44,663 bases of DNA, taken from Bacteroidetes bacterium MED-G17 (GTDB lineage: Bacteria > Bacteroidota > Bacteroidia > NS11-12g > UBA9320). The stretch spans positions 1 through 44,663 of the forward strand of contig NTKK01000011.1 in assembly GCA_002457675.1 (NCBI GenBank), given 5' to 3'. This document shows, in pieces, positions 7,101 to 11,848 of the stretch. How positions within the stretch are numbered: position 1 is the first letter of the stretch; the number at the start of each line of letters is the position of its first letter. Both the position numbers and the translations under genes were made by a program. The notes beneath the pieces are model-generated. The model saw only the letters and a program-made list of their open reading frames with translations. It ran no database searches and was not told the DNA's origin.

Positions 7101-7231
7101 TAAGCCGCGGAAATAAATTCACCACAATCCCATAATGGGACAGAAGGTTCAATGGTTAATGTATAAACCAACAAGCTGATAGCGAAAGACAACCAACCCA
7201 AAACATTATTTACTAGTTTGAAATTCAACAT
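4106..7231 (-). CDS. DUF2723 multi-pass membrane protein (putative glycosyltransferase)
   Basis: 1041 residues. The first half carries about a dozen membrane segments; the second half is largely soluble, with a helical, TPR-like C-terminus. The family signature is near the N-terminus: VPLWDCGEFISAAYKLQVVH (about 31-50) followed by PPGAPLFLMLGR, with the acidic D/E in the first extracytoplasmic loop as in GT-C enzymes. The human DUF2723 protein TMEM260 is an O-mannosyltransferase, so a lipid-sugar-dependent protein glycosyltransferase is plausible here; bacterial function is inferred. In Bacteroidota, periplasmic protein O-glycosylation is widespread, which fits. It is followed by rlmB with an 11-base overlap. 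The start MLNFKLVNN directly precedes the first membrane helix. Confidence 0.8.
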   Translation of the reverse strand: MLNFKLVNNVLGWLSFAISLLVYTLTIEPSVPLWDCGEFISAAYKLQVVHPPGAPLFLMLGRVFSLFAGSPENVAFAVNFLSAVAAALTVMFTFWIITHFGKKLMGIKLSEKQLTLPQGIALFSAGLVGSLALTFMDTFWFSAVEAEVYASSSLFTAITFWLILKWEANKDQIFADRWLILIFFLIGLAIGLHLLNLLVIPAVIYYYYFNKYDYSRKGLFKASAIGLGILGFLQWGLIPGLPRLASSFDLFFVNELGLPFNIGVIIFIAVLFGLLAFGLFWTTKNGHALYNLILLCVTFLVIGYSCYAMVPIRSLAEPTIDMNNPEDAHSLLSYINREQYGDRPLFKGPYFTARPIGINEGRMQYRKDKEDGKYEKIGEKFSYEYDEKDETIFPRMGDAREKNQGFPIWISSLEGKKRNPTFSENIGFFFKYQIGWMYARYFFWNFVGRQSDVQNVTGEPFDGNWLSGIGFVDARLGPQKNIPPLHSSNKGRNTYFFLPLILGLIGVLHQFKKQKLDAWVVTCLFVFTGLAIIVFLNQPPLEPRERDYAFVGSFQTFCIWIGLGVLYVYDQLSKRLNGLTAAGLSGIMCLFAVPVLMGAQNWDDHDRSGRDLALAFAKNYLNSCDENAILFTNGDNDTYPLWYAQNVEGYRTDVRIINLSLLSTEWYSSALRRKFYKSEALPISIPAGQMEEGKREYLRYNNNPKIFPEGKYYEVDKIVKFITSDDRRFMVNQGNGEFDNYLPTRNLILPIDKQVVIESGTVKAKDSSFIVPAMMWKHNNGRGIMKGSYLVYDIIATNAKNGWERPIYFTTTTSKKTYLGLDKYMRLEGLTYRLVPIESNLNQVGGMIDLDLLYDKLMNTFVWGGMEKGDEILLDDKATLVPKNLRNTFTSLSRRYAAQGDNEKATKLLDHCMTVIPASSLPMEPNMKWYFIDCYYLAKSADQGERMLTNYLSEVQDLLNYYAKFKGKLRDAGRRQKIQTISSLLQAARTADREKLKEFDQIKSLLNSKSNRFELDQILQYQLGYNNENVRKAFLDRLGAQ

Positions 7232-7301
7232 GAATACAGAACCAACAAATTAAATACTTCTGAGAAATATTAGCGCATAACCTTAAGTATAAAAATTTTA
7301 G

Positions 7302-7309
7302 TTTATTTG
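7302..7309 (+). promoter_or_regulatory. Possible -7 box of the rimP-nusA-infB operon
   Basis: TTTATTTG differs at one position from TAnnTTTG. If used, transcription would begin roughly at 7313-7316, just before the hairpin at 7321. No -33 TTG is obvious. This is weak evidence, but it is the best candidate upstream of rimP. Confidence 0.3.
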
Positions 7310-7320
7310 CAGTAAAGTAG

Positions 7321-7345
7321 AAAGGGGATGCAAATCCCCTTTTTT
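7321..7345 (+). terminator. Terminator-like hairpin in the rimP leader (possible attenuator)
   Basis: Perfect 9-bp stem: AAAGGGGAT (7321-7329) pairs with ATCCCCTTT (7334-7342), closed by the tetraloop GCAA (a GNRA loop) and followed by three more T. It looks like an intrinsic terminator, yet it lies at the start of the rimP-nusA-infB operon and 15 bases before the rimP ATG. It overlaps the in-frame ATG at 7328, which argues that this ATG is not the start. It might be an attenuator or a 5' stabilising hairpin; it could also terminate an upstream short transcript. Confidence 0.6.
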
Positions 7346-7360
7346 CATGACCACTTGTTG

Positions 7361-7813
7361 ATGAGCAAAGTCAGTGCCATAAAAAATATTATCGAAAACC
7401 AACTTGCAGATACAGACTGCTTCTTGGTTGATACGGAAAGTAATTCCACAGAAACCGTCATTAAATTTTTTATTGATGGCAATGCTGGAGTTAAAATTGA
7501 CTTTTGCGCAAAACTTAGTAGAACCATTTCTAAAGAACTCGACAATTTAGGACTTGAAGAAGATGCGTTCAGGTTTGAGATTTCCTCACCAGGGATTGAA
7601 AAACCACTTGTAGACATTCGACAATTTCCTCAACATATAAATAGAACCCTAAGAATAGAACAAGACGAAAATATAATTAAGGGCATGCTTAAAAAGATTG
7701 ACGGCAATAATTTAGAAATTAAAATACCAAAATCCAAAAAATTACCAGATCAGATCGTTAATATAGAATTTAATCAGCAAATCAAAATTAAAGTAATACC
7801 AAGTTTCAAATAA
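7361..7813 (+). CDS. rimP: Ribosome maturation factor RimP
   Basis: 150 residues. The N-terminal alpha/beta domain includes the conserved ISSPGIEKPL motif (SSPGxxxPL, about residues 75-84) and the DF..CxxLSR segment; the C-terminal SH3-like domain follows. RimP binds the 30S subunit and is needed for its maturation. Its place directly before nusA (three bases between genes) and infB is the classic conserved operon order. I chose the ATG at 7361 (MSKVSAIKNII) because the upstream in-frame ATG at 7328 lies inside the hairpin and would add 11 residues unlike the family N-terminus. Confidence 0.9.
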   Translation: MSKVSAIKNIIENQLADTDCFLVDTESNSTETVIKFFIDGNAGVKIDFCAKLSRTISKELDNLGLEEDAFRFEISSPGIEKPLVDIRQFPQHINRTLRIEQDENIIKGMLKKIDGNNLEIKIPKSKKLPDQIVNIEFNQQIKIKVIPSFK

Positions 7814-9142: not shown

Positions 9143-11848
9143 TTGGCAGCCAAGTCAAAAACATACCGTATCCAAAAAGTCGCCGTGGAACTCAATGTTT
9201 CCTTTGGTAAACTTATTGAGCACCTCAACGAAAATAATTTCGATGTAGAAGATAAAATTACAGCAAAAATTTCTCAAGAAATGTATGACCTACTTCAGGC
9301 ACATTTCTCCGCAGATAAAGAAGCAAAAGAAGAATCTTTAAGTCTAAGAAGAACTGAAAAAGTCGAAAAACAAAATATTCACGCGCAATCCCAAAAGAAA
9401 GATATCCCCAAAAAACAAACTGAAGAGGAAATTATTCTTATCAAAGACACCGGACTTTCTACTGCACCTACTGAATCCTCAAACAAAACAGAGGAAAAAC
9501 AGAATTCTGCAGAAGAAACTCCACCAATAAAAGAAGAGAACAAGCAAGAAAAAGAACTAGACGAAATTCTAGAAAAAAATAAATTACCTGGTATTAAAGT
9601 CCTAGACAAAATAGACCTCAACCCAAAAAAGAAAGTTGATACTCCAGAAAACACAAATCAAATAAATGCCTTATCAGAAGAACAAACGATTGAGGATAAA
9701 CTAGAACCTCTTGAGAAAATACCAACGCCATCAGAAGAGAATAAACCGAAAGAGGAAGAATCTGAAAAACCCCTTATCAAACCCCAGTATGAAAAACTAA
9801 AAGGTCTGTCGGTAAAAGGTAAGATAGAATTAAAAACACCAATAGAAAAGAAAAAGGAAGAACCAAAAAAAGGAAATACCGACGAAGAAGATGTCAAAAA
9901 GAAAAAAAGACGTCGGAGAAAAGTTATCTCTAAAACCGGACAAACATCAACAAGTTCAAAACCAAATAACAAAAAGACTACCCATAATAAGTTTCAACGC
10001 AATAGAAATACAGGAAATCGAGCGAAACACCGCCAGAAAAAAAGGGATAACATTCGAAAAAATATTGAACAAACTCAAGAACAAAATATACTTGACAGCA
10101 AAATACTACAAGTTACAGAATTTGTAACTGCCAATGAACTGGCAAACCTAATGGACATTAATGTCAATCAAATAATTACTGCCTGTTTCAGTTTGGGCAT
10201 GATGATTTCAATTAACCAAAGACTTGACGCAGAAACAATTGAATTATTAGCTGAAGAATTCGAATATGAAATCGAATTTATAGATGCTGAAACACAAATT
10301 GATATTGTAGAAGAGATTGATAACGAAGAGGATATGCAAGAAAGACCCCCAATTGTTACTATAATGGGGCACGTTGATCATGGAAAAACATCCCTTCTAG
10401 ACCATATTAGAAACACAAATGTTATTGCAGGTGAAGCAGGTGGAATTACTCAGCATGTTGCAGCATATGAAGTTACGTTAGAAGACGATAGAAAAATTAC
10501 TTTCATTGATACGCCCGGTCACGAAGCGTTTACCGCGATGAGAGCGAGAGGAGCAAAAGTTACAGATATGGCCATCATTGTAATCGCCGCAGACGACCGA
10601 GTGATGCCGCAAACAAAAGAAGCAATTTCACATGCACAAGCAGCCGATGTACCTATAGTGTTTGCATTCAACAAAATTGACAAGGATACTGCAAATCCAG
10701 ATAAAATAAGGGAAGAACTCTCAGCAATGAATATACTTGTTGAAGAGTGGGGAGGGCAGTTTCAAGCACAAGAAATTTCTGCAAAAACTGGACTCAACGT
10801 AGACGAACTACTTGAAAAAGTTCTACTGGAATCAGAAATACTAGAGCTCAAAGCAAATCCAAATAAAAAAGCAAAAGGGACAATCCTTGAAGCCAGAATG
10901 GAAAAAGGAATGGGTGTGTACACCTCAGTCCTCGTACAAGAAGGTACCTTGAAAGTCGGAGATTCAATACTTGGAGGATCAAACTTTGGAAAGGTAAAAG
11001 CGCTTTTTAATGAAAGAGGACAAAGAATACAAATTGCTGGCCCTTCGGCACCAGTTGGTATGTTGGGGTTCAACTCTCCACCAACTGCAGGTGATATTTT
11101 TCAAGTTCTGGGAACAGAACAAGAAGTAAAAGAAATCGCAAGTAAAAGACAACAGTTACAAAGAGAGCAAGGCATACGAGCCAAAAAACTTATCACTCTT
11201 GACGAAATTGGACGAAGACTTGCTATCGGCAACTTCAAAGAGCTTAATCTCATTATCAAAGGTGATGTGGACGGATCGGTAGAAGCGCTTGGAGATTCCC
11301 TTTTGAAACTCTCTACAGAAGAAATCCAAGTCAATGTGATATATAAATCTGTAGGTGCAATTACAGAATCAGATGTTCTTTTGGCCACCGCCTCCGAAGC
11401 TATAATTATCGGTTTTCAAGTAAGACCTACACCTTCTGCTAAAAAAATAGCTATAGATGAAGGAGTAGAAATAAAAACCTATTCAGTAATCTACAAAGCT
11501 ATTGAAGAAGTAAAAGCTGCAATGGAGGGTATGTTAGAGCCAGATATTGAGGAAAAAGAAATTGGTTCAATTGAGGTACGTGATGTATTTAAAATAAGTA
11601 AAGTGGGCACCATTGCAGGTTGTTATGTACTCAATGGAGAAGTCAAAAGAGACTCGAAAATCCGGATTATCCGAGATGGAGTCGTGATACATGACGGACT
11701 TCTTGAAAGTTTGAAACGTTTTAAAGATGACGTAAAAGAAGTTAAAAAGGGCTATGAATGCGGACTTCAAATAAAAAACTTTAATGACATCCAAATAGAA
11801 GATATGTTGGAGGTGTACCAAGAAGTGGAAATCAAAAGAAAACTCTAA
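9143..11848 (+). CDS. infB: Translation initiation factor IF-2
   Basis: 901 residues. An N-terminal IF2N helix domain ([17 protein letters not shown], about 12-28) is followed by a long charged Lys/Glu-rich linker with an Arg/Lys block (KKKKRRRRK near 253), then a second IF2-N domain (about 320-375). The GTPase domain shows G1 GHVDHGKTS at 409-417, G3 DTPGHEAF near 455-462 and G4 NKID near 510. Domains II-IV complete the factor. IF-2 brings initiator tRNA to the 30S subunit. The start is TTG at 9143: it is the only start giving the family N-terminus ([14 protein letters not shown]), and no in-frame ATG is nearby. It lies downstream of a stem-loop in the rimP-nusA operon. Confidence 0.95.

Follow-up and report, generated by a model that had tools for sequence, protein, structure and literature searches.

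A promoter-proximal hairpin before rimP-nusA-infB in Bacteroidota, probably an attenuator with NusA as its likely effector

The window analysed here—a stretch of 44,663 nucleotides from Bacteroidetes bacterium MED-G17—is contig 3 of a 1.67-Mb genome that is 99% complete. It carries rimP, nusA, and infB in series on one strand, preceded by a short leader (Table 1), and the upstream neighbour of this leader is a divergent TMEM260-like gene starting at 7231. An ATG at 7347 was considered as the start of rimP and rejected, since homology places the start at 7361. A four-codon open reading frame (ORF; ATG ACC ACT TGT TGA) opens at that ATG, just past the U run of the leader, and runs to 7361, its stop overlapping the rimP start codon (TGATG); it is probably a product of chance.

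Table 1. Features of the rimP-nusA-infB locus in the window.
Feature	Position	Strand	Basis
Putative -7 promoter box TTTATTTG	7302..7309	+	One mismatch to TAnnTTTG
Leader hairpin, 9-bp stem, GCAA loop 7330-7333	7321..7342	+	Sequence, folding, order comparison
U run, putative intrinsic terminator	7340..7345	+	Sequence; first three U also in stem
rimP, 150 aa, first gene of the operon	7361..7813	+	Homology; Pfam RimP_N 1.4e-13
nusA, 412 aa	7817..9055	+	Pfam NusA_N 7.6e-30, KH_5 8.7e-27
infB (IF2)	9143..11848	+	Pfam IF-2 2.6e-39; start approximate

The first-pass annotation described a perfect 9-bp stem with a GCAA loop and a U run ahead of rimP, and all of these are confirmed in the sequence: the arms are AAAGGGGAT (7321–7329) and ATCCCCTTT (7334–7342), followed by a run of six U that begins inside the stem. 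The stem can be extended through G7320·U7343 and A7319–U7344, which consumes the U run. The hairpin lies 18 nt from the rimP start. Folding of positions 7310–7363 yields −15.8 kcal/mol (z −2.87), with 2 of 200 shuffles folding equally well.

A generic terminator scan does not list this hairpin, probably because most of its U run is absorbed into the extended stem; it was found by a dedicated scan. Across all contigs of the genome, searched in stretches for stems with at least four G–C pairs and at least six T among the eight nucleotides after the stem, 74 terminator-like hairpins were recovered. By rough gene calls, 43 of them follow a same-strand ORF, 13 fall within ORFs, 14 elsewhere, and four solely in leaders. 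The rimP hairpin is one of these four; a further one lies on the minus strand at G000:C10:58718-58741 (in L092 and L093). In stability, the trimmed rimP-leader stem (−10.9, with a median of −13.55 for the set) comes 57th among the 74, which fits the published observation that terminators at 5′ ends are weaker on average than those at 3′ ends (PMC2965389).

Conservation was assessed in an order set of 58 genomes, 55 of which, the genome of the window included, contain RimP; no RimP match was obtained in the remaining three (G004, G032, and G033). Each of the 55 rimP leaders, and with them all 29 distinct arm pairs, folds around a GGG:CCC core, the stretches having been retrieved by GGG..CCC patterns and aligned on that core, so that the three core pairs are invariant by construction. 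A detector for a hairpin plus U run passes 53 of the 55, compared with 4 of 275 shuffles. MAFFT misplaced stems of differing loop length, and pairs were instead counted on the GGG:CCC-anchored arms. Of the cells in the 29 distinct arm pairs, 95.0% are paired, against 81.5% in shuffles and 46%–76% when the arms are slid. Both sides of a pair are changed in 38 cells, where shuffles give 12.2, and the covariation score reaches 0.447, where shuffles give 0.172; none of 500 shuffles attains any of these three values, and the number of further pair types, 16, was matched by 3 of 500. Five pairs show a change on both sides, which is not unusual, as 75 of 500 shuffles reach that number. At the fifth pair, numbered from the core's outer G and adjacent to GGGG, A–U, C–G, G–C, U–A, G–U, and U–G all occur, with no mispair. 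Compensatory changes, which the first-pass annotation had proposed to look for in related genomes, are thus present, and the stem is conserved across the order. The loop is free to vary, with a GNRA sequence in 2 of 55 leaders, and the GNRA cap to which that annotation had attached meaning is therefore incidental.

An RNA model of the hairpin (R1) was rejected as a finder, since it also matches ordinary terminators, and the alignment derived from it, which mixes strands, was excluded from the pair counts. Because R1 does not distinguish this hairpin from ordinary terminators at other sites, the specificity of the element rests on its position. One order genome holds a second RimP-like match (G029:C6:31228-31640), closely preceded by a hairpin match of its own; this is either a second copy or contamination.

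Across the phylum, 288 of 296 genomes gave a RimP match, and 89 of these were examined as a non-random sample: the 29 best RimP matches among those listed, plus 60 picked for family spread. The detector passes 26 of the 29 (2 of 145 shuffles) and 55 of the 60 (13 of 300 shuffles), which brings its shuffle rate over the order and both phylum sets to 19 of 720. It had replaced a first version that allowed no mismatches (54/55, 20/29, and 47/60, with 22 of 1,440 shuffles) and hence missed families with an internal mismatch. Another or a doubtful hairpin was chosen in L165, L174, L220, L223, and L226, with the leader hairpin nonetheless visible in L174 and L223; L161 was misread where a contig edge cuts the region. 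Detection was absent or doubtful in G190, G333, and G340, which have U-run hairpins 505–970 nt before the NusA match, upstream of the stretch scanned or of the RimP match. Stem types differ by family and include GAGGGGAC/GTCCCCTC, GAAGGGAACG/CGTTCCCTTC, TCGCCC/GGGCGA, and the mismatched AGTGAGCG..CTCACT. In a further, named set—80 genome records retrieved via NusA, among them Pedobacter, Mucilaginibacter, Odoribacter, and Brumimicrobium—a hairpin and U run precede rimP in 73 of the 75 records with a readable rimP ORF, a set that is not independent, as at least five of the 80 records repeat order-set genomes.

The two misses in the named set, L241 and L242 (the latter being G039), keep the stem with an unclean U run. 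The same holds for genus g14 (G038, G039, G044, and G051), whose U runs are weak or interrupted, as in ACTTGTTTT and AATTGTTA. Stems of this lineage (L088, L129, L047, and L050, as well as L241 and L242) are mostly GAGGGGC/GCCCCTC, with AAGGGCC/GGCCCTT in L047. A stem with a broken or weak U run is unexplained by a plain terminator reading; a shift to factor-dependent termination, or another use of the hairpin, is possible in g14.

Several families carry variants of their own. In family f25, the leader type is AGTGAGCGYC..CTCACT with an internal mismatch (L153, L156, L157, L163, L164, L166, L168, L177, L214, L215, L234, and L236); GNRA loops occur in 10 of 12 f25 leaders examined and in 3 of 3 from family f5, on differing stems. 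Nine leaders of family f2 (L028, L032, L036, L037, L040, L044, L048, L049, and L087) share a longer loop of identical sequence, AAGCCAAAAGCA, set in a GGGGAC/GTCCCC stem, with close variants in other f2 leaders; the loop sequence looks as if it were read by a protein. By eye, tandem U-run hairpins precede rimP in L203, L204, L217, and L221, the first with a G-rich 5′ arm and the second with a C-rich 5′ arm of the GCGCCCG..CGGGCG type—an arrangement that recalls the tandem of Gammaproteobacteria (PMC2965389) in the opposite order.

The hairpin is also tied to a promoter signal. The box TTTATTTG ends 11 nt before the hairpin and is close to TAnnTTTG, given as the consensus of the Bacteroidota −7 box in an excerpt of PMC7366714. 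From the ‘−7’ placing of the box, transcription is expected to start at about 7314–7317, which would leave some 4–7 nt before the stem, probably too few for an alternative antiterminator structure. Of the 55 order leaders, 53 have an exact TAnnTTTG in the 60 nt preceding the core, against 117 of 2,750 mononucleotide shuffles, at a distance of 16–30 nt in all but one; the outlier, at 50 nt, may be a different box. The two order leaders without an exact match are that of the window, whose one-mismatch box lies 14 nt from the core, and that of G006, which has none. As the spacing in the window is at the short end, its stem should begin a few nucleotides from the RNA 5′ end. The first-pass annotation had anticipated such a position as pointing to a stabilising cap or very short leader RNA; the position looks right here, and it is no argument against a terminator, given that the corresponding Streptococcus agalactiae transcript stops at 31 nt.

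In the named set, where a script placed the core in 73 of 75 leaders, the box is present in 64 of 73 at 12–32 nt from the hairpin, with one at 44 nt, and the first in-frame ATG (ATG starts only, GTG and TTG being left aside) follows the C run at 7–117 nt. The narrower range of box distances suggests, to a moderate degree, that the promoter, more than the start codon, sets the position of the hairpin; the middle halves of both distributions are alike in width (18–28 nt for the box and 14–26 nt for the ATG).

Genomes without rimP offer a natural experiment. A Pfam RimP_N search at E 0.01 found no RimP in 17 of 392 phylum genomes, of which 12 (eight of family f34 and four of family f48) have NusA and a readable upstream region; the unreadable five end at contig ends (G383 and G408) or have no NusA match (G206, G308, and G405). 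In none of the 12 does an ORF of at least 90 aa (at least 110 aa for the first five) end directly ahead of nusA. A U-run hairpin stands immediately before nusA in all 12, with TAnnTTTG 7–31 nt upstream of it in 11, as judged by patterns written after the sequences had been read; a general detector that dispenses with those patterns likewise returns the hairpin in 12 and the box in 11, where 240 dinucleotide shuffles yield 9 and 0, respectively. In seven of the 12 genomes, the hairpin is weak, at −6.6 to −8.5 kcal/mol. The eight f34 hairpins read GGGC..GCCC, and the four of f48 (GGCGCTCC..GCGTC type) have no GGG:CCC core; in G402, a stronger terminator-like hairpin lies farther upstream. Since the 12 genomes fall into two families, they do not represent 12 independent losses, perhaps only two. 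From these sequences, what appears to be new is that the leader unit stays with nusA when rimP is gone.

Taken together, these observations are best explained by a promoter-proximal attenuator of rimP-nusA-infB, the Bacteroidota form of the rimP-leader, with NusA as the most likely effector, a reading to which we assign a probability of about 0.7. Polymerase would start at the TAnnTTTG-type promoter and make an RNA of around 30 nt (around 40–50 nt in most relatives, by box spacing), whereupon the hairpin and U run would halt a portion of transcripts before rimP. Plentiful NusA would most likely raise termination and thereby switch off the operon that encodes it, and scarce NusA would let polymerase read through; the hairpin is thus probably a brake by which NusA limits its own production. 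Attenuation had already been suggested in the first-pass annotation, and it gains from the conserved stem, the compensatory changes, the link to the promoter, and the rarity of such hairpins among the leaders of this genome; we infer termination in vivo and the response to NusA. That NusA is the effector is likely, and is favoured by the persistence of the hairpin beside nusA in genomes devoid of RimP.

More tentatively, the leader could be a phylum-wide, promoter-anchored sensor that gauges the speed of NusA loading onto newly started polymerase and is inherited with nusA. The hairpin lies mostly 12–32 nt from the −7 box, so the decision might fall during the exchange of sigma for NusA, and the unit stands before nusA where rimP has been lost.

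It is rather unlikely that the attenuator answers instead to RimP, IF2, NusG, or nascent 30S subunits. The identical GGG:CCC core of the order leaders does suggest a reader of that core, and IF2 is encoded downstream, infB still following nusA in at least 6 of the 12 RimP-less genomes. The hairpin unit tracks nusA without rimP, which argues against RimP—not a required effector there—and for NusA or IF2, and excerpts of PMC12288461 report that NusA attenuates its own operon in Bacillus subtilis.

Less probable still is an element that stabilises the 5′ end or controls translation beside the start codon, termination being incidental. Such a role would suit a hairpin a few nucleotides from the expected 5′ end and near the start codon, and would suit g14, which keeps the stem despite its poor U run; against it stand the joint occurrence of hairpin and U run in 53 of 55 order leaders and 73 of 75 named-set leaders and, with moderate force given their similar middle halves, the wider spread of ATG than of promoter distances. 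A terminator of an upstream or antisense transcript is very improbable: the reverse complement is also terminator-like (R1 matches G000:C3:7314-7347 on the minus strand), but the upstream gene of the window diverges, 51 of the 69 nearest upstream ORFs in the named set are codirectional and 18 divergent, with the hairpin before rimP in 73 of 75, a TAnnTTTG box sits just upstream of the hairpin in 64 of 73, and conservation follows rimP and nusA, not the upstream gene. A functionless chance hairpin can practically be dismissed, for although 19 of 720 shuffles of such intergenic sequence give T-run hairpins, this one is conserved with compensatory changes in the order and recurs with its U run across the phylum.

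For the window itself, the leader would be an ordinary housekeeping control element. More broadly, attenuation of the nusA operon would be extended to Bacteroidota on comparative evidence, the absence of rimP would point to NusA or IF2, not RimP, as the regulator, and a very short, well-bounded leader would make NusA feedback testable in a phylum that uses distinct promoter and translation signals.

Among known systems, the closest is the rimP-leader, named by Naville and Gautheret, who termed it the most ubiquitous attenuator and regarded NusA as the best effector candidate (PMC2965389). Shared with it are a G-rich 5′ arm, a C-rich 3′ arm, and a U run in the leader of rimP-nusA-infB (a 5′ UTR, going by the predicted promoter), as well as a GGG..CCC core (55 of 55 order leaders), no larger conserved element, and a distance to the gene start that is 4–130 nt in the published family. 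The C–G pair directly after GGG in that family (GGGc..gCCC, its lower-case letters marking a preference; PMC2965389) is absent from the window, which has a fourth G–C pair and then A–U; among the 29 distinct order rows, the pair after GGG is G–C in 25, A–U in three, and C–G in one, and the next pair is C–G in 8 of 29. Unlike the published rimP-leader, the Bacteroidota leader is predicted to be very short, with its hairpin near a TAnnTTTG box, and some families have an inverted core (TCGCCC..GGGCGA) or, as in f25, a mismatched stem. The main text of PMC2965389, whose species lists are in its supplement, contains neither ‘Bacteroid’ nor ‘Flavobacter’.

Rfam family RF01770, identified in an excerpt of PMC5955585 as the rimP leader of Gammaproteobacteria, likewise comprises a terminator hairpin in the same operon. 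At the leader of the window it gives no match at the gathering score, nor even at E 10; its scoring covered 150 of 270 first-look candidates, with 16 sub-threshold matches elsewhere. Other Rfam families produce only weak matches at 7200–7500, all far under their gathering scores. For Bacteroidota, the literature search returned nothing on this leader beyond one sentence in the excerpted PMC9723704, which mentions a structured rimP 5′ element without an Rfam match in Flavobacterium psychrophilum; it is probable that this is the same hairpin.

Control at this site is also reported in other bacteria. In Escherichia coli, rimP is preceded by terminators and NusA acts on the operon that encodes it (excerpts of PMC6511841), and a rimP fusion in a Rho mutant appears in part of PMC7815308. 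The B. subtilis nusA attenuator is alike in being an operon-leader terminator, subject there to the NusA autoregulation reported in the excerpts of PMC12288461; its leader is about 180 nt long (PMC2965389), compared with a predicted 45 nt or so here. A closer parallel in length is found in S. agalactiae, where, according to excerpts of PMC4448216, transcription of gbs0413-gbs0418 (rimP-nusA-infB) terminates 31 nt past the start and the short and long RNAs have a common start: that leader, from another phylum with another promoter type and measured by RNA-seq, is very short, as the Bacteroidota leader is predicted to be.
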